From NCBI RefSeq assembly GCF_002114285.1, contig NZ_NEDJ01000032.1, positions 1 to 35,791 of the forward strand: DNA of 35,791 nt. Direction: 5' to 3'. Position 1 is the first letter of the stretch; each line of letters begins with the position of its first letter. This document shows, piece by piece, positions 7,314 through 18,104 of the stretch. A program made the position numbers and the translations under genes. This DNA comes from Halorubrum ezzemoulense DSM 17463. GTDB taxonomy: Archaea > Halobacteriota > Halobacteria > Halobacteriales > Haloferacaceae. Below the pieces are notes generated by a model that had not been told where the DNA came from, did not search any database, and worked only from the letters and a program-made list of their open reading frames with translations.

Positions 7314-9242
7314 CTACGGGCCGAACGCCTCGTTGAGCCGGGTACGGAACTCGTCGAGCTCGTCGAGGTGGTCGTTGATCTCATCTAGCTCGGCGGCAAC
7401 GTCGTCGAGGTCCTCTCCGAGCCGGTCCTCGATGTCGGTGAGCCGGCTGTCCACCTCCGCGAGGTCGTCCCACAGGTCGTCGAATTCCTCGTCGAAGCGG
7501 GCGAGTCCGGACTCCACGTCGTCGACGCGCTCCGCGACGCCGGCCGCGCGGTCCTCGGCGCTTTCGGCCCGCTCTTCGGCGTTCTCGGCGCGTTCGGCCG
7601 CCCTGTCGACCTCCTCGTACAGCGTCTCCACGTCGTCGCCTAGGTCGTCGACCGTCTCCGCGGCGGCGTCCGCCGTCCCCTCCACCCGGTCGACGTCGTC
7701 GGCGAGGTCTTCGACGTCGCTCTCGACGGCCGAGACGCCGTCTCGGACCGACTCGACGGTTTCCTCGACGGACGCGACCTCGTCCTCCACGCCGCGCACG
7801 TCACCTTCCACGCTGCGAACGTCGTCTTCGACCGCCTGTACGTCGTCTTCGACCGCCTGTACGTCGTCTTCCACGCCGCGCACGTCGTCTTCGACCGCCT
7901 GTACGTCGTCTTCCACGCCGCGCACGTCGTCTTCGACCGCATCGAGGTCGGTCTCGACGGTCTCCACGCGCTCGTCGACCGCATCGACCGCGTCGGAGGT
8001 CGACGCGACCGCGGAGTCGACGCGGGCGACGTCCGACTCGATCTCCTCGCGATCGTCTTCCGCGTCGTCGAGGCGATCGTCGAGGGCGTCGACCTCGGAC
8101 TCGACGGCGTCCACACGCTCGTCGATCCCGTCGAGGATCTCTCGGGCGGTCCCCTCGCCGTCGATGAACTCCGCGAGCGCGTCGGCGTACGCCTCGATGT
8201 CGGCCACGCTCGACTGGAGTCGAGCGATCCGCACGTCGACGCTGCGCGGCACGCTCGCGTCGAACGCCCTCTCGATGGTCTCGATGTCCTCCTCGTCGGC
8301 CGCCCCGGTGCGGATCTCGGCCGCTAACGCGGCCGCGAGACCGCCTTCGCCCGGAAGACTCGCCTCGTCCGTCTCGTCGGTTTCGTCGAGTTCGTCGGCT
8401 TCCGTTCCGTCTTCGTCGGCTTCCGTTCCGTCTTCGTCGGCGACTTCCGGCTCGTCTTCGACGGCCGACTCGGCGGCTGTGTCGTCTGTTTCGGGCGTTT
8501 CGTCGGGCTCATCGGCAGGGGTTGTCTCTTCGGCTCCGGCCTCGGGTTCGACCGCGGCGCCGACCGATTCCCCCTCATGTGGGGACACCGCGGCCGTCCC
8601 GTTGTCGGCGACCGTTCGCGGCTCGGGGGTGTCGGGCTCAGGATCGGCCTCGGTTTCGCGGCCGGCGGCGGCTTCCGTGGCGCTCTCTGCCTCCGGTTCC
8701 GGTTCCGCCGCGGGTTCCGGGCCGGGATCGCGGGCCGAGGCGCCCTCACCGGACTCCGCGGGGTCTCCCGCCAACAGTTCGTCCTCTTCCGCCATTCCGG
8801 GGAGCGTCGCGCGGTCGCCGGAGAGCACCTCTCGGACGGCGTCCGTGTCGCCGGCGCCGAGGACGTCTTCGATCTCCTCGCCGACCGGCACGTGTTCGAT
8901 CACCGGCGTGCCGAGGAACCCGTCGAGGTCGGGGTCGTCGTCGCGGATCCCGAACACCGTCTCGACGGTCTCGTCGGGGTCTATCACCCGTTCGAACTCC
9001 ACGCGGTGGTCCTTGTACGCGGTCCAGTTCTCGCTCTCGTACTCCGGGTGGAACCCCACTCGGTCCATCGGGAACGACTCCGGGATCCGGTCGACGATAC
9101 GCACCCGTACGGGGTCCTCACGGTGTGAGGAGAGGGTGTACATCACCGCCGGCACGGGGAACGCGTCGTCCGTGAAGGATTTCTCGACGCGGATGCCGTC
9201 CTCGTCGACGGTCGTGGCCGCCTCCGCCGTCCGTTCGCTCAT
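7314..9242 (-). CDS. Large acidic coiled-coil protein, haloarchaeal, function unknown
   Basis: This 642-residue protein has three parts. An N-terminal globular domain (about 10-115) contains GIRVEKSFTDDAFPVPAV and SENWTAYKDHRVEFERV. A long low-complexity Glu/Ala/Thr/Pro-rich region spans about 150-300. A long coiled coil (about 330-640) includes tandem heptads of the VEDDVRG / VEDDVQA type (near 432-482). There is no signal peptide or membrane segment. It resembles haloarchaeal proteins with a conserved head and a spacer-like rod; a structural or chromosome-associated role is speculation. A TATA-like ATTTAAG lies 24-30 bases before the ATG. The gene stands alone between the HisG-like and MBL-fold genes on the same strand. 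Confidence 0.85.
   Translation of the reverse strand: MSERTAEAATTVDEDGIRVEKSFTDDAFPVPAVMYTLSSHREDPVRVRIVDRIPESFPMDRVGFHPEYESENWTAYKDHRVEFERVIDPDETVETVFGIRDDDPDLDGFLGTPVIEHVPVGEEIEDVLGAGDTDAVREVLSGDRATLPGMAEEDELLAGDPAESGEGASARDPGPEPAAEPEPEAESATEAAAGRETEADPEPDTPEPRTVADNGTAAVSPHEGESVGAAVEPEAGAEETTPADEPDETPETDDTAAESAVEDEPEVADEDGTEADEDGTEADELDETDETDEASLPGEGGLAAALAAEIRTGAADEEDIETIERAFDASVPRSVDVRIARLQSSVADIEAYADALAEFIDGEGTAREILDGIDERVDAVESEVDALDDRLDDAEDDREEIESDVARVDSAVASTSDAVDAVDERVETVETDLDAVEDDVRGVEDDVQAVEDDVRGVEDDVQAVEDDVQAVEDDVRSVEGDVRGVEDEVASVEETVESVRDGVSAVESDVEDLADDVDRVEGTADAAAETVDDLGDDVETLYEEVDRAAERAENAEERAESAEDRAAGVAERVDDVESGLARFDEEFDDLWDDLAEVDSRLTDIEDRLGEDLDDVAAELDEINDHLDELDEFRTRLNEAFGP
7797..7950. 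repeat. 21-bp tandem repeats encoding heptads
   Basis: About seven imperfect 21-base units alternate two types, one coding VEDDVQA (plus-strand GTCGTCTTCGACCGCCTGTAC, here given only as type) and one coding VEDDVRG. Units are nearly identical in DNA, indicating recent expansion or correction. The repeat stays in frame, so copy-number change would only lengthen or shorten the rod by heptads. Confidence 0.8.
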
Positions 9243-10389: not shown

Positions 10390-11043
10390 TCACCCGCGAA
10401 AGAGTTTGACGACCTCGTCGACGACGTCCGACTCGACGGCGAGGATATACTGTTCTGACGGTTCCAGCAGCGTGTCGGGACCGGCGAGCGACTCTCGGTC
10501 CGACGTGGAGATGAGGAGACTCCCGGCCGGAAGGGCGATCTCGTCGAGCCGGCGTCCCGCGACGGGGGCGGACTCGGAGACGGTCACCTCGATGATGTCG
10601 AGGTCGGCGGTGGGGAACACGAGCGTTCGGATCTCTTCGCCGGTGAGCATATCGGCCGCGTGGTCGCCGCCGAGCGACTGCGGTAGCAGCGTGGCGTCGA
10701 CGACCTCGCCGTGTTCCTGTTCGGTCCGCGACTCCGACCTGGCCAGGGTCCGGATAGCCGGCGCGAGGTGGTGCGCGGTCATACAGATATCCGTGTTCGT
10801 CTCCGTCTCGTCGGTCAGCGCCGCGATAGCGTCGGCGTTTCGGAGGTCCGCCTGCCTGAGGATCGACTGCTCGGTGGCGTCGCCGTGGATCACGGGGCCG
10901 CGGTACGCGTCGGACAGCTTCTCGACGCGGTCCGCGTCCACCGCGATCAGCAGCACCTCGTGGCCCTGTTCGGTGAGGTTCTCCGCAGTCTGGAGTCCGA
11001 CTCGCCCGCCGCCGGCGATGACGAATCGCTTTGACTGGGTCAT
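10390..11043 (-). CDS. TrkA family NAD-binding regulatory protein
   Basis: This 217-residue cytoplasmic protein has an N-terminal Rossmann RCK/TrkA-N domain (residues 1-120) with the dinucleotide motif GGGRVG (11-16) and an acidic residue closing strand 2 (LLIAVDADR). A linker leads to a TrkA-C domain (about 135-217) ending YILAVESDVVDEVVKLFRG. Such proteins gate transporters or channels in response to NAD(H) or other ligands. It is divergent from the APC permease, whose downstream neighbour is a paralogue of the same length. That context suggests regulation of amino acid transport rather than the Trk potassium system, as no TrkH gene is present. The ATG is supported by a TATA box 26-32 bases upstream. 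Confidence 0.9.
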   Translation of the reverse strand: MTQSKRFVIAGGGRVGLQTAENLTEQGHEVLLIAVDADRVEKLSDAYRGPVIHGDATEQSILRQADLRNADAIAALTDETETNTDICMTAHHLAPAIRTLARSESRTEQEHGEVVDATLLPQSLGGDHAADMLTGEEIRTLVFPTADLDIIEVTVSESAPVAGRRLDEIALPAGSLLISTSDRESLAGPDTLLEPSEQYILAVESDVVDEVVKLFRG

Positions 11044-11068
11044 CGTGTCGTCCCTCGGCTTCCGACGG

Positions 11069-11094
11069 CTTTAATCCGGGCCGGATTCCGGCCC
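11069..11094 (-). promoter_or_regulatory. TrkA gene promoter with abutting 17-bp palindrome
   Basis: Minus-strand ATTAAAG (11075-11069) is a TATA box 26-32 bases before the ATG at 11043. Two bases further upstream begins a perfect palindrome GGGCCGGA-T-TCCGGCCC (11078-11094), covering the place where TFB would bind next to the TATA box. This looks like an operator. Confidence 0.5.
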
Positions 11095-11177
11095 TCTGGA
11101 ACAACTACCAGCGCGCTGCCGCCGGGCGGGCGTATCAGGCCCCGCCACGATTCCGCGACTCCCGAATTCACCCGGGG

Positions 11178-11184
11178 TATAAAG
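11178..11184 (+). promoter_or_regulatory. TATA box of the APC permease operon
   Basis: TATAAAG is the clearest TATA box in this part of the window. With usual spacing transcription would start near 11207-11212, just before the ATG at 11214 of a short upstream ORF and about 35-40 bases before the permease ATG. Confidence 0.65.
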
Positions 11185-11213
11185 TGACGAGAGTACCAGT
11201 TTCGGGGCGTACG

Positions 11214-11249
11214 ATGGACGATACGGGAATCGGCTTTCACGACCGATGA
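11214..11249 (+). CDS. Possible 11-residue upstream ORF / leader peptide
   Basis: The ATG at 11214 opens MDDTGIGFHDR and stops with the TGA at 11247-11249, which overlaps the permease ATG as ATGA. Its ATG sits where a leaderless transcript from the TATA box at 11178 would begin. The permease ATG at 11246 has no Shine-Dalgarno-like sequence. Translation of the short frame could therefore deliver ribosomes to the permease start. It may be chance; no conservation data are available here. Confidence 0.35.
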   Translation: MDDTGIGFHDR

Positions 11250-12700
11250 GCGGAAGCGAGACTCGTTCTCCGGAAGCCGAGCTCGGACTGCTCGACGCGA
11301 CGATGATCGGCATGGGGGCGATGATCGGTGCCGGCATCTTCGTACTGACCGGACTGGCCGCGGAAATCGCCGGTCCGGCGGCGATCGTCGTCTTCGCGCT
11401 CAACGGGGTCGTCACCGCGTTCACCGGCCTGTCGTACGCCGAACTCGCCAGCTCGATCCCGAAGAGCGGCGGCGGGTACGCGTTCGTCCGGGAGATATTC
11501 GACGACCTCTCGTCGTTCATCATGGGCTGGATGCTCTGGTTCGCGTACATGATCGCCGGGGCACTCTACGCGCTGGGATTCGCTCCGAACTTCCTCGAAC
11601 TGCTCCACGTCTACGGGGCCGTCGCTCCGCCGGAGGAGGTCGGTGACGTCATCCTTCCCGTCGTCGGCGCGCAGGTCAGCCCGGGCTTCCTGCTGGCGTT
11701 CGTCGCCGTCTTCGTGTTGGTGGCGCTCAACGCCGTCTCAACGGCCGCCAGCGGGAAGGCAGAGACGGTGTTCACGATAATCAAGGTGAGCATCCTCGTG
11801 GTGTTCGTCGCCTTCGGGCTGGCGTCACCGATGTTCTCGGGCGCCGAGTTCCAGCCGCTGTTCCCCGCGGGCGGCGGAGCGGGAGCGGTCCTACCGGCGA
11901 TGGGGCTCACGTTCATCGCCTTCGAGGGGTACGACCTCATCACGACCGTCACGGAGGAGGTCAAGAATCCCCGGGAGAACATTCCGAAGGCGATCTTTGT
12001 GAGCCTCGCCGTGACCGTGGTCGTCTACCTGGCCGTGGTCACCGTCGCCGTCGGAACGCTCGGGGCAGAGGGGCTCGCGGAGGCGGGGGAGGCCGGGATC
12101 GCCACGGCGGCGACCTCGTTCATGCCGACCGGGCTCCCGATCATCCGGAACGGCGGCGCGCTGGTCGTCTTCGGCGCCGTGTTCTCGACGCTGACGGCGC
12201 TAAACGCGGTCGTGATCGCCTCTTCGCGGGTCGCGTTCTCGATGGGACGCGAGGGGCAGTTGCTCCCCTCGTTCGGCCAGATCCACCACCGATACGGGAC
12301 GCCGTTCGTCGCGATCCTCGCGAGCGCCGTGGTCATGTTGGGCTCCGTCGCGCTGCCGACGCAGAGCGCGGGGAACATGTCGAGCCTCTTCTTCCTGCTC
12401 CCGTTCGTCATCGTCAACGTCGCCGCGATCAGGCTGCGACGCGAGCGACCCGACATGAACCGTCCATACGAGATGCCGTTCTATCCGGCCCCGCCGCTGA
12501 TCGGCATCGCGCTCAACCTGGTCTTGACCGGGGTGCTCGTGGAGTACCTGCTGCGGACGGACCCGTTGGCGCTAGCGCTCAGCGCGGCGTGGATCCTGCT
12601 CGGCGGCGCCGCGTATCTCGCGCTCAACAGACTGCGGGCGGAACCGGACGCGGACTCGGCGGCGGCAGACGCGACAGCCATTCCGGAGACGGAGGACTGA
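11246..12700 (+). CDS. APC superfamily amino acid permease
   Basis: This 484-residue secondary transporter has about twelve hydrophobic segments, starting with LGLLDATMIGMGAMIGAGIF (helix 1 with the broken GxxIGAGIF substrate motif). Other family marks are SYAELASSIPKSGGGYAFVRE after helix 2 and FIAFEGYDLITTVTEEVKNPRENIPKAIF (split below 20 here: FEGYDLIT, then EEVKNPRENIPKAI) after helix 6. The last 30 residues are acidic and cytoplasmic. It is probably an amino acid or polyamine proton symporter; specificity is not readable. It forms an operon with a TrkA-type gene that starts 4 bases after its stop. The start at 11246 matches the family N-terminus; no in-frame start exists just upstream. 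Confidence 0.92.
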   Translation: MSGSETRSPEAELGLLDATMIGMGAMIGAGIFVLTGLAAEIAGPAAIVVFALNGVVTAFTGLSYAELASSIPKSGGGYAFVREIFDDLSSFIMGWMLWFAYMIAGALYALGFAPNFLELLHVYGAVAPPEEVGDVILPVVGAQVSPGFLLAFVAVFVLVALNAVSTAASGKAETVFTIIKVSILVVFVAFGLASPMFSGAEFQPLFPAGGGAGAVLPAMGLTFIAFEGYDLITTVTEEVKNPRENIPKAIFVSLAVTVVVYLAVVTVAVGTLGAEGLAEAGEAGIATAATSFMPTGLPIIRNGGALVVFGAVFSTLTALNAVVIASSRVAFSMGREGQLLPSFGQIHHRYGTPFVAILASAVVMLGSVALPTQSAGNMSSLFFLLPFVIVNVAAIRLRRERPDMNRPYEMPFYPAPPLIGIALNLVLTGVLVEYLLRTDPLALALSAAWILLGGAAYLALNRLRAEPDADSAAADATAIPETED

Positions 12701-12704
12701 ATCC

Positions 12705-13358
12705 ATGACGAGTTCACTCGACATCGTGATCGCGGGCGGCGGACGTGTCGGCTTCCAAACGGCTGAGCTACTCGCAGACCACGGCCACGAGGTGACGATC
12801 GTCGAGCGGGACGAAGACGTCGTCTCCGAGATCGCAGACGAGTACGTCGCCACGGTGATCCGCGGCGACGCGACGAACCCCGACATCATCGAGCAGGCCG
12901 GCGTCGAACGGGCGGACGTCGTCGCGGCGCTCACCGGGGAGACGGGGCTCAACCTCGCGGTCTGTCTGGCCGCCAGGGAGCTCTCTCCGGGGACTCGGAC
13001 GGTGGCTCGCATCGACCGGGCCGCCGGCGAGGCGTACACGCGGTTCGTCGACGCGGTGTTGTTCCCGGAGCGAGCAGGTGCCCGCGTGGCGGCGAACGAG
13101 ATCGTCGGTGACGACGTCCAAGCGCTGACGGACGTGACGGGCGACCTCGACATCATGCTCGTCCGCATCGCGGAGGGAGCGCCGGCCGCCGGGAAGTCGC
13201 GCACGCAGGTCCGGTTTCCGGACGGTACCCTGGTCGTCTCCGCCGCGGACGCCCAACAGGTCGCCCGTCCCGACACGACGCTCACGCCGGGGAAGCGCTA
13301 CGTCGTCGCCGTCGAGCCCGGCGTGGCCGACGAGGTGATGAACCTCCTTCAGGGGTGA
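12705..13358 (+). CDS. TrkA family NAD-binding protein, paralogue of the gene at 10390-11043
   Basis: This 217-residue protein has a TrkA-N Rossmann domain with GGGRVG (residues 11-16) and the strand-2 acidic end VERDED, then a TrkA-C domain ending YVVAVEPGVADEVMNLLQG. It is the same length as the divergent paralogue and aligns with it throughout (for example VIAGGGRVGFQTAE against VIAGGGRVGLQTAE). It starts 4 bases after the permease stop, so it is co-transcribed with the permease and is most simply its cytoplasmic regulatory subunit. No potassium channel or TrkH gene lies nearby. Confidence 0.9.
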   Translation: MTSSLDIVIAGGGRVGFQTAELLADHGHEVTIVERDEDVVSEIADEYVATVIRGDATNPDIIEQAGVERADVVAALTGETGLNLAVCLAARELSPGTRTVARIDRAAGEAYTRFVDAVLFPERAGARVAANEIVGDDVQALTDVTGDLDIMLVRIAEGAPAAGKSRTQVRFPDGTLVVSAADAQQVARPDTTLTPGKRYVVAVEPGVADEVMNLLQG

Positions 13359-15871: not shown

Positions 15872-17236
15872 CTATCGCGTCGACAGCGAGCCCGGCGTCC
15901 ACTCGGCACCGTCGAGCTCGCGGTGCGTGAACGGGACCGCGTCCTCGCCGCTGTAGCTCGCGACGAGGTGGCCGTCGCCCTCGAGGTAGTACTTGTACGT
16001 GGTGAGCCCCGCCAGTCCGACCGGCCCGCGGGCGTGGATCTTGCCGGTCGAGATGCCGACCTCGGCGCCGAGCCCGTAGCGGTAGCCGTCCGCGAACCGC
16101 GTCGACGCGTTGTGGAACACGCTCGCGGCGTCGACGCCGGTCATGAACGTCTCGGCCGTCTCGGCGTCCTCGGTGAGGACCGACTCGGTGTGTTTCGATC
16201 CGTGGTCGTTGGCGTGTTCGACCGCGGCGTACACGTCGTCGACGACGGCGATCGACAGTTCGAGGTCGCCGTACTCGGTGTCCCAGTCGTCGTCGGTCGC
16301 GGGCTCGATGTCGACGACCTCGCGGGTCCGCCGGTCGCCGCGCAGCTCGACGCCGGCCGCCTCGTACCGCTCGACGAGACCGGGGAGGAACGCGTCGGCG
16401 ACGGACTCGTGGACGAGCAGCGTCTCGACGGCGTTACACACCGCCGGGTACTGGACCTTCGCGTCGAAGGCGACGGCTTCGGCCATCTCCAAGTCGGCCG
16501 CCTCGTCGACGTAGACGTGGCAGATCCCCTCGGTGTGTCCCAACACGGGGATCTGGGTGTTCTCCTGAATGTAGGAGACGAACTCCGAGGAGCCGCGCGG
16601 CATGACAAGGTCGACGCGGTCGTCGAGTTCGAGCAGGCGGTCGACCTCCTCGTGCGCCTCGATGAGCGCGGCCCAGCCGTCGGGCAGGTCGGCGGTCGCC
16701 TCAACGATCGCCTCGTACAGCACGCGGTTCGACTCGCTGGCCTCGCTGCCTCCTTTGAGGACGACGGCGTTGCCAGACTTCAACGCGAGCGCCGCGATCT
16801 GGACCAGGGCGTCGGGCCGCGACTCGAACACGGTCGCGACGACGCCGATCGGCACGGCGACCCGGTACAGCTCCAAGTCCTCGTCGAGCTCGCGCGCCGC
16901 GAGCGTCTCCCCGAGCGGGTCGTCCTGTGCGGCGACCGACTCGACCATCGAGGCGATCTCCTCGATCTTCGTCTCGTCGAGCTTCAGGCGGTCGACTAAG
17001 GCCTGCGTGTACTCCCCCTCGGCGAGCATCCGCTCCGCCTCCTCGACGTCGACCGCGTTCGCGTCGAGTATCTCGGACTCGCGCTCGCGGATCGCGTCGG
17101 CGATCGACCGGAGCGCCTCGTTCCGCGTCGCCTCGTCGGCGTTCGCGAGCTGGAGCGCGGCGCGTTCGGCCCGCCGGGCCAGCTCGTCGGTGTCGGCCTC
17201 CACGTCGGTGTCCGGTTCCGTGTCGGTGTCACTCAT
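15872..17236 (-). CDS. proA: Glutamate-5-semialdehyde dehydrogenase (gamma-glutamyl phosphate reductase)
   Basis: ProA reduces glutamyl-5-phosphate with NADPH, the second step of proline synthesis. It has 454 residues from the ATG at 17236. Family marks are [33 protein letters not shown] and the catalytic cysteine in [17 protein letters not shown]. The end region [18 protein letters not shown] is also typical. About 20 acidic residues precede the fold. The start overlaps the proB stop by 8 bases; a GTG at 17245 in frame is an alternative. It is the third gene of proC-proB-proA, and both preceding junctions overlap, so translation is coupled. Confidence 0.97.
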
Positions 17237-18104
17237 CGTCGTCACCAGTCTCTGGCACGAATAGCGTGCCCGTCGGCTTACCCGCTACGATCCGCGCTAA
17301 CACGTCGCGCTCGGCGGAGCCCGCGATGATCGCTGGGATCCCGTTGCGGCTCACGTCGTGGGCGCCCTCCACTTTCGTCCGGATCCCGCCGAAGTCGGTC
17401 GCGGTGCCGTCGCCGACGATCTCGCGGAGCCGCTCGTAGCCGTCGTCGACCGCCTCGATCAGCTCGGCGTCCGCGTCGCGCTTCGGGTTCCCGGTGTAGA
17501 CGCCGTCGACGTCGGTGAGCGTCACGAGGAGGTCGGCGTCGAGACCGATCGCGATCGACGCCGACAGCATGTCGTTGTCGCCGATCCGGAGCTCGTCGGT
17601 CGCCACCGCGTCGTTCTCGTTGACCACGGGGACGACGCCCCACGACAGCAGCTTCTCGACGGTGTTGGTGAAGTTGTCGAACCGCTCCGGCGCGTCGAGG
17701 TCCGTGCCCGTCACGAGGATCTGCGCCACGTCCTGGTCGAACCGCTCGAAGCTCTGCGTGTAGTGGCGCATCAACAGCCCCTGTCCGACCGTCGAGAGCG
17801 CCTGGCTCTCGGCGATCGAGTCGACCCCGTCGCGCGACTCCGGTCCCACGTCGAGCCGTCCGGTGCCGGCGCCGACCGCCCCCGAGGAGACCAACACGAC
17901 CTCGGTGCCGCGCTCGCGGAGGTCCATCACGTCGGCGACGAGCTTGTCGAGCTTCACGCGGTCGAGCCGGGAGTCCGCGTCGGTCAGGGAGTTCGTTCCG
18001 GCCTTGACGATCACCCGGTCCGCGCCGGCCGCCTCCCGCCGAGCGGCCTCAACGTGCTCGGGGTCTGCCGTGCCGACTCGCTCGACGCTCGCGTCCTCAG
18101 GCAT
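17229..18104 (-). CDS. proB: Glutamate 5-kinase
   Basis: ProB phosphorylates glutamate with ATP, the first step of proline synthesis. It has 291 residues and an amino-acid-kinase fold with [12 protein letters not shown] near residue 31, [16 protein letters not shown] near 69, [16 protein letters not shown] and [18 protein letters not shown]. There is no C-terminal PUA domain, unlike the 367-residue E. coli enzyme, as is common in archaea. It overlaps proC by 8 bases upstream and proA by 8 bases downstream. Confidence 0.96.

Follow-up and report, generated by a model that had tools for sequence, protein, structure and literature searches.

We analyzed a window of 35,791 nucleotides (nt), which is contig C81 of the haloarchaeal draft genome G000 (Halorubrum ezzemoulense DSM 17463, NZ_NEDJ01000032.1; 3.6 Mb in 155 contigs). 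In its region 10390-13358, two genes for TrkA-type RCK proteins, RCK1 and RCK2, flank a gene for an APC amino-acid permease. RCK domains are known gates of potassium channels and carriers. We find that the permease and RCK2 form a conserved gene pair, to which RCK1 is an accessory. We propose, with a probability of about 0.6, that the permease is an amino-acid carrier, probably coupled to protons, that RCK2 regulates it as a subunit that senses nucleotides, and that the permease and RCK2 together make up a two-component transporter. The genes of the locus are as follows.

10390-11043, minus strand: RCK1, 217 amino acids (aa), TrkA_N and TrkA_C (Pfam), divergent to the permease; accessory RCK
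11044-11245, no strand: spacer between the divergent genes for RCK1 and the permease, aligned with 14 relatives; putative promoter region
11246-12700, plus strand: APC permease, 484 aa, AA_permease_2
12705-13358, plus strand: RCK2, 217 aa, TrkA_N and TrkA_C; core partner of the permease

The RCK2 start lies 4 nt past the permease stop codon. Both RCKs exceed the Pfam cut-offs for TrkA_N and TrkA_C, RCK2 only narrowly for the latter (28.7 versus 27 bits), and the permease matches AA_permease_2 at 3e-51 (Pfam). An original prediction, made from the letters of the window, had described two 217-residue TrkA-type paralogues around one APC permease; the open reading frames (ORFs), the domains and the 43% identity between RCK1 and RCK2 (94/217 residues) agree with it.

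An RCK gene adjoins the permease in all 68 haloarchaeal loci

With only the permease as query, a search of 194 genomes of the host's class, sampled evenly out of a larger group, gives 68 orthologues (identity of at least 57%), which are spread over 63 genomes. These counts are lower bounds because some genomes had first-look candidates left unscored. For each of the 67 orthologues other than that of the window, we examined the surrounding stretch and confirmed by script that the orthologue is covered. A same-strand RCK gene directly follows the permease in 64 of these 67 loci, or 65/68 counting the window, with a gap of 16 nt in the median and 255 nt at most (measured from alignment ends). The three loci that lack it (L122, L134 and L146) have a divergent RCK upstream instead, and some RCK gene adjoins the permease in 68/68 loci. 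At L146, the contig stops soon after the permease, and an RCK2-like gene opens another contig of that genome (L096). As a control, we checked the next tier of permeases (identity up to 43%; 11 places; open frames of 801-893 codons): an RCK lies directly downstream in 0/11, and Trk genes stand elsewhere in the stretch in 3. The linkage of permease and RCK exceeds chance.

A divergent RCK lies within 600 nt upstream of the permease in 27/67 loci. Eighteen of these are RCK1 orthologues (17 assigned by the tree described below and L069, where RCK1 is interrupted, by identity), three belong to a third clade, one is unassigned (L101) and five are KtrA-type RCKs of a neighboring trkH. Both the upstream and the downstream positions are occupied in 24/67 loci. 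Two further loci (L186 and L188) show an extra same-strand RCK upstream, giving the order RCK, permease, RCK in one direction. The original prediction had called for a synteny survey of the trio: the permease-RCK pair proved to be conserved, and RCK1 is present in 20/68 loci.

The two proteins are encoded by separate ORFs at this locus, and the downstream RCK was scored as separate in 64/67 other loci. Five RCK matches lie in open frames of 587-769 codons, which had raised the candidate of a permease-RCK fusion; comparing L048-L052 by hand, we rejected it, as the two genes use different frames. The long permease ORFs outside the class, for their part, end in USP-like sequence.

To a second sample of named genomes we applied a contig scan with the RCK2 alignment, which gave 87 relatives, and the best 80 loci were used. 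In 74/80 of them, a permease of at least 45% identity adjoins the RCK; in one of the 74 (L241), which a contig end cuts, the permease comes after the RCK. L231 is truncated where its contig begins, and five loci (L237 and L245-L248), where the RCK is 42-46% identical, have no permease at 45% or above. Many haloarchaeal genera are represented in these best 80 loci, and the pair of permease and RCK2 is spread over haloarchaeal families. It is also present in bacteria, namely Salinibacter altiplanensis and an uncultured Bacteroidetes metagenome-assembled genome (L221 and L222; permease 61-62%, RCK 52-53%). On plasmid pNRC200 of Halobacterium NRC-1, the order is RCK1 (VNG_RS11330), TnpB, permease (VNG_RS11315), RCK2 (VNG_RS11310), with an 11-nt overlap between the permease and RCK2. 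The NCBI annotation of RCK2 is TrkA family potassium uptake protein.

RCK1 is an accessory of the permease-RCK2 core

A class-wide search with RCK1 (E of 1e-45 or lower) returned 20 orthologues of at least 70% identity, every one at a permease locus, whereas such an orthologue is missing from 48/68 permease loci. RCK1 is interrupted in two of the 20 loci. A stop lies within the gene in G023; the gene is split in G084:C1 and on the Haloarcula hispanica plasmid pHH126, and three neighboring proteins are 100% identical between these last two. A TnpB insertion separates RCK1 from the permease in one of the 20 loci, and in G018 it lies 2 kb away. In the named loci of Halobacterium, RCK1 and the permease have a TnpB gene between them; this arrangement is seen at L249 (NRC-1 pNRC200) and L192.

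The conserved core is thus the permease with RCK2. Since RCK1 is found in only 20/68 loci and is interrupted or split off in some, a hetero-ring is not required, and an RCK1-RCK2 hetero-oligomer is optional at best. The earlier idea of a module with two RCKs is not supported in that form. It had also been asked whether the paralogues occur widely without the permease. All 20 RCK1 orthologues and 74/80 RCK2 relatives sit at a permease, but the sister group of RCK1 (53-55% identity) has no permease of 50% identity or more in the 4 loci examined. One solitary RCK1 relative, at L102 (6163-9380), is followed by two genes that we take, from their sequence, to encode cytochrome bd oxidase subunits.

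The permease is probably an amino-acid carrier

The best match of the permease in the PDB is 5oqt (5.5e-50), and MJ0609 is also matched (2.4e-33); we take these to be GkApcT and MjApcT. All PDB chains matched at E of 0.001 or lower are amino-acid, polyamine or uncharacterized APC carriers. No chain named KimA or KUP matched up to E of 10, in a library whose KimA/KUP content was unchecked. Lys180 of the permease aligns with Lys158 of MJ0609, the lysine through which the amino-acid carrier ApcT is coupled to protons. The permease further carries GAG at residues 28-30 and FIAFEGYD at 223-230. In 19/19 aligned permeases, Lys180, Gly28-Ala29-Gly30 and FIAF(E/Q)GYD (bar the E/Q position) are invariant. 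The marks of the CAT/ApcT type, i.e. AA_permease_2, the G-A-G motif of transmembrane helix 1 (TM1) and the TM5 lysine, are all present; the latter two are motifs of amino-acid carriers. Judging from these residues, the permease is probably a CAT/ApcT-like, proton-coupled amino-acid carrier.

The protein stops after its membrane part, without a USP domain. Most of its relatives outside the class have a fused USP-type soluble part where this permease ends; at most seven of the long permease ORFs ending in USP-like sequence were read, in part.

RCK2 keeps an intact nucleotide motif and is separate from the Trk/Ktr RCKs

We built an RCK tree of 116 rows, leaving out the partial RCK1 of L069. Forty-three downstream RCKs form the RCK2 clade (support 100/93), and 19 sequences form the RCK1 clade (100/100). 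RCK1, RCK2 and the other permease-linked RCKs fall outside the group of the genome's own Trk/Ktr RCKs (100/98), except for the five KtrA-type proteins beside trkH, in a tree for which the program warned of possible long-branch attraction, Trk group branches included. Members of the third clade stand divergent to the permease in three loci and downstream of it in five; one further locus (L132) has no such permease. Permease-adjacent RCKs are thus drawn from more than one clade, though one is always present, and the tree indicates that the type of RCK partner has changed during evolution. A related clade of RCKs lacks this permease; at L127 (5490-6929) and L128 (6139-7578), its members stand divergent from genes which from their sequence are presumably sodium:neurotransmitter-type symporters.

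Both RCK1 and RCK2 have GGGRVG at residues 11-16. All 43 rows of the RCK2 clade keep GxGxxG and Glu34. In the RCK1 clade, Glu34 is present in 17/18 rows with a residue there, the only exception being this locus, with Ala34. Checking for the nucleotide motif (GxGxxG plus an acidic end of strand 2), we find it complete in RCK2, while RCK1 of this locus lacks the acidic part, which perhaps means altered nucleotide binding. A structure model of RCK2 (predicted local distance difference test score, pLDDT, 74.5; predicted template modeling score, pTM, 0.61) has its best fold match in one chain of TM1088A:TM1088B, an octameric RCK ring built from two subunits (3l4b, 2.4e-14), followed by TrkA and MthK.

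Relation to potassium and c-di-AMP

The host genome has 17 TrkA_N matches, 14 of them exceeding the cut-off, and five TrkH matches. The original prediction had noted no potassium transporter nearby, and this held: in a search of the whole genome, TrkH was absent from the contig bearing RCK1-permease-RCK2, its matches being confined to contigs C133 and C75. On C133, TrkH is near a two-RCK TrkA plus a single RCK, and on C75 near a single RCK. The host Trk/Ktr systems are therefore already supplied with RCK neighbors.

On pHH126 of H. hispanica N601 (L250/L251, about 9-23 kb), the cassette with the split RCK1 lies inside an island of ~14 kb. Besides the cassette, the island contains TrkH, a TrkA fragment, a two-RCK protein, a Na_H_Exchanger fragment, a DAC-domain protein, USP proteins and another amino-acid permease. 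The DAC-domain protein, annotated as a diadenylate cyclase, is a partial match only (profile 53-118, 32.6 bits). We considered this short diadenylate-cyclase paralogue as a constant partner and rejected it: in 7 other loci, the window genome included, no potassium or permease query genes lie beside it. The pHH126 case, common to G084:C1, therefore stands alone. The occurrence of the permease-RCK2 pair near trk genes in Haloferax and its relatives, and near a diadenylate-cyclase-like gene on the Haloarcula plasmid, hints at potassium or cyclic di-AMP (c-di-AMP) homeostasis.

Because a DAC domain is found in the host genome and in 25/25 other genomes tested, c-di-AMP is a reasonable, if unproved, candidate ligand of RCK2. 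A term search in the available text of a paper on c-di-AMP in H. volcanii gave no mention of RCK or TrkA (PMC6741144). A response to K+/NAD+ has been suggested for regulators of Halobacterium that carry a fused TrkA-C domain (PMC4236453). AsnC-type regulators with TrkA_C are seen at L109 (4831-5700), beside TrkH/RCK in the host genome, and at L103 (5227-6015), near a permease-RCK pair.

Upstream elements and neighboring genes

The divergent intergenic region holds the following short elements.

11070-11075: TTTAAT, putative TATA-like element for RCK1
11086-11089 and 11098-11101: inverted repeat TTCC-8 nt-GGAA, upstream of the TATA-like site of RCK1
11178-11184: TATAAAG, putative TATA-like element for the permease
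11208-11218: GCGTACGATGG, conserved, ahead of the permease

Of the 14 RCK1-bearing relatives that were aligned, most have sequence similar to the inverted repeat and to GCGTACGATGG. A short ORF upstream of the permease is found in most loci carrying RCK1. We rejected it as a conserved upstream ORF after comparing 41 sequences: L075 and L082 have it in a broken or shifted form, and many of the loci that lack RCK1 do not have it. A DNA element is therefore the likelier explanation.

A 642-aa acidic protein (7314-9242, minus strand) is probably a coiled coil with degenerate VEDDV-type repeats. In five related loci (L068 and L070-L073), a gene that we take to be proA-like is convergent after RCK2; in the window, the proA-like gene lies at 15872-17245, and three other genes separate it from RCK2.

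Discussion

The mechanism that we propose runs as follows. The permease would be a CAT/ApcT-like carrier, probably coupling amino-acid transport to protons, and RCK2 would be its soluble regulatory subunit, as an RCK ring or dimer. The Rossmann domain of RCK2 would bind an adenine nucleotide or NAD(H), and its RCK_C domain may hold a second ligand, e.g. c-di-AMP. Docking on the cytosolic face of the carrier, RCK2 would switch transport, and amino-acid flux would so be coupled to the energy, osmotic or potassium state of the cell. RCK1 would be an optional second RCK, which in some lineages may tune or join the assembly. We infer the contact between permease and RCK2, the ligand, the direction of control and the substrate. 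We take the RCK for the regulatory part of the carrier because an RCK of one clade or another always adjoins it, and because the relatives outside the class have a fused USP part where the carrier ends. A bolder version, to which we give somewhat less than even odds, is that a KtrA-like RCK ring gating no potassium pathway has become an obligate, separate subunit of an amino-acid carrier. This ring would read nucleotides and perhaps c-di-AMP and, in salt-in halophiles, link the flux of amino acids to an osmotic balance that is based on potassium, with a second RCK joining a mixed ring in some lineages.

Several observations weigh against our proposal. A trkH gene lies within the examined stretch in 8/67 permease loci and near the locus in 11/80 named loci, all Haloferax, Halogeometricum or Halogranum, and a role in K+ uptake is therefore possible there. 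RCKs of the same superclade without this permease make up 18/20 of the 'other' tree rows (all but L088 and L096). The permease model is of low confidence (mean pLDDT 55.4) and was unused for a fold search. The RCK2 model deviates from the matches listed by a root-mean-square distance of 10.7-14.2 Å, a poor domain placement, so that its arrangement of domains is unreliable.

The trkH neighbors bear directly on the question, raised in the original prediction, of whether the RCKs pair with Trk/Ktr genes rather than with the permease. That an RCK adjoins the permease everywhere stands, but freedom from trkH does not hold in all lineages. RCK1 and RCK2 might then serve Trk/Ktr transporters encoded elsewhere, with the permease merely a co-member of an osmotic-stress regulon. 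Besides these loci, the trkH on pHH126 and the NCBI annotation of RCK2 fit such a service. However, the TrkH genes of the genome already have adjacent RCKs, RCK1 and RCK2 lie outside the group of its Trk/Ktr RCKs, and the permease is linked in all 68 loci whereas trkH is so in a minority; we judge this explanation quite unlikely. The prediction that the RCK goes with an amino-acid carrier rather than with a gene of the TrkH type is instead borne out by the spread of the pair across haloarchaeal families and to a bacterium and by the place of its RCKs outside the Trk/Ktr group.

Alternatively, the permease itself could be a K+ transporter gated by RCK2, as KimA and KUP are K+ transporter families of the APC superfamily. 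RCK partners are typical of K+ transport, and trk genes are nearby in some lineages. This reading is very unlikely in our opinion, as the chains matched at E of 0.001 or lower are of the amino-acid, polyamine or uncharacterized APC kind, and the lysine aligned with Lys158 of MJ0609 is invariant. It is likewise unlikely that RCK1 and RCK2 are both needed and act together on the permease as one mixed ring. The confinement of all 20 RCK1 orthologues to permease loci and the fold match of RCK2 to a chain of an octameric two-subunit ring are what such a unit would lead us to expect, but 48/68 loci do without an RCK1 orthologue, the gene is stopped in G023 and split in G084:C1 and pHH126, and its transcription runs away from the permease.

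Having weighed these explanations, we return to RCK2 as a regulatory subunit of the carrier and compare it with known systems. It resembles KtrA/TrkA in having TrkA_N and TrkA_C, the size of a KtrA-like single RCK, GxGxxG, an acidic end of strand 2 and the fold match to TrkA and TM1088A:B. It differs in that its gene partner is an amino-acid permease (68/68) and not TrkH/KtrB, and in that its clade is separate from the genome's own Trk/Ktr RCKs. Compared with the CAT/ApcT carriers 5oqt and MJ0609, the permease is of the same family, with the TM5 lysine aligned; to our knowledge, neither of the two has an RCK partner. The USP-fused APC permeases are its nearest relatives below the orthologue tier (identity of up to 43% within the class and of 36-49% in the rest of the phylum). 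They have a fused USP pair, whereas here the permease has no soluble part and an RCK gene adjoins.

KefC is the closest case studied in detail in which an RCK acts on a carrier. It likewise has the RCK on a secondary carrier and not on a channel; this RCK binds AMP, the RCK is proposed to keep the carrier inactive, and RCK folds that dock on and inhibit the carrier are known from it (PMC11150392). KefC differs in being a K+/H+ antiporter of another carrier family with a fused RCK, in contrast to the APC permease and separate RCK protein here. Among titles and abstract openings, in a search that mostly left subscription papers outside, we found no published account in which an RCK protein has an APC amino-acid carrier as its target.

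The pair offers a small testable system of two genes, with the cassette present in the laboratory haloarchaea Halobacterium NRC-1 and Haloarcula hispanica and a plain uptake assay at hand. The annotation as TrkA potassium uptake protein may mislead in haloarchaea, where genes so named may be part of another system. A conserved pairing of an RCK with an amino-acid carrier would widen the known roles of RCK sensors, and the nucleotide or ion state of the cell may directly control amino-acid transport in salt-loving archaea.

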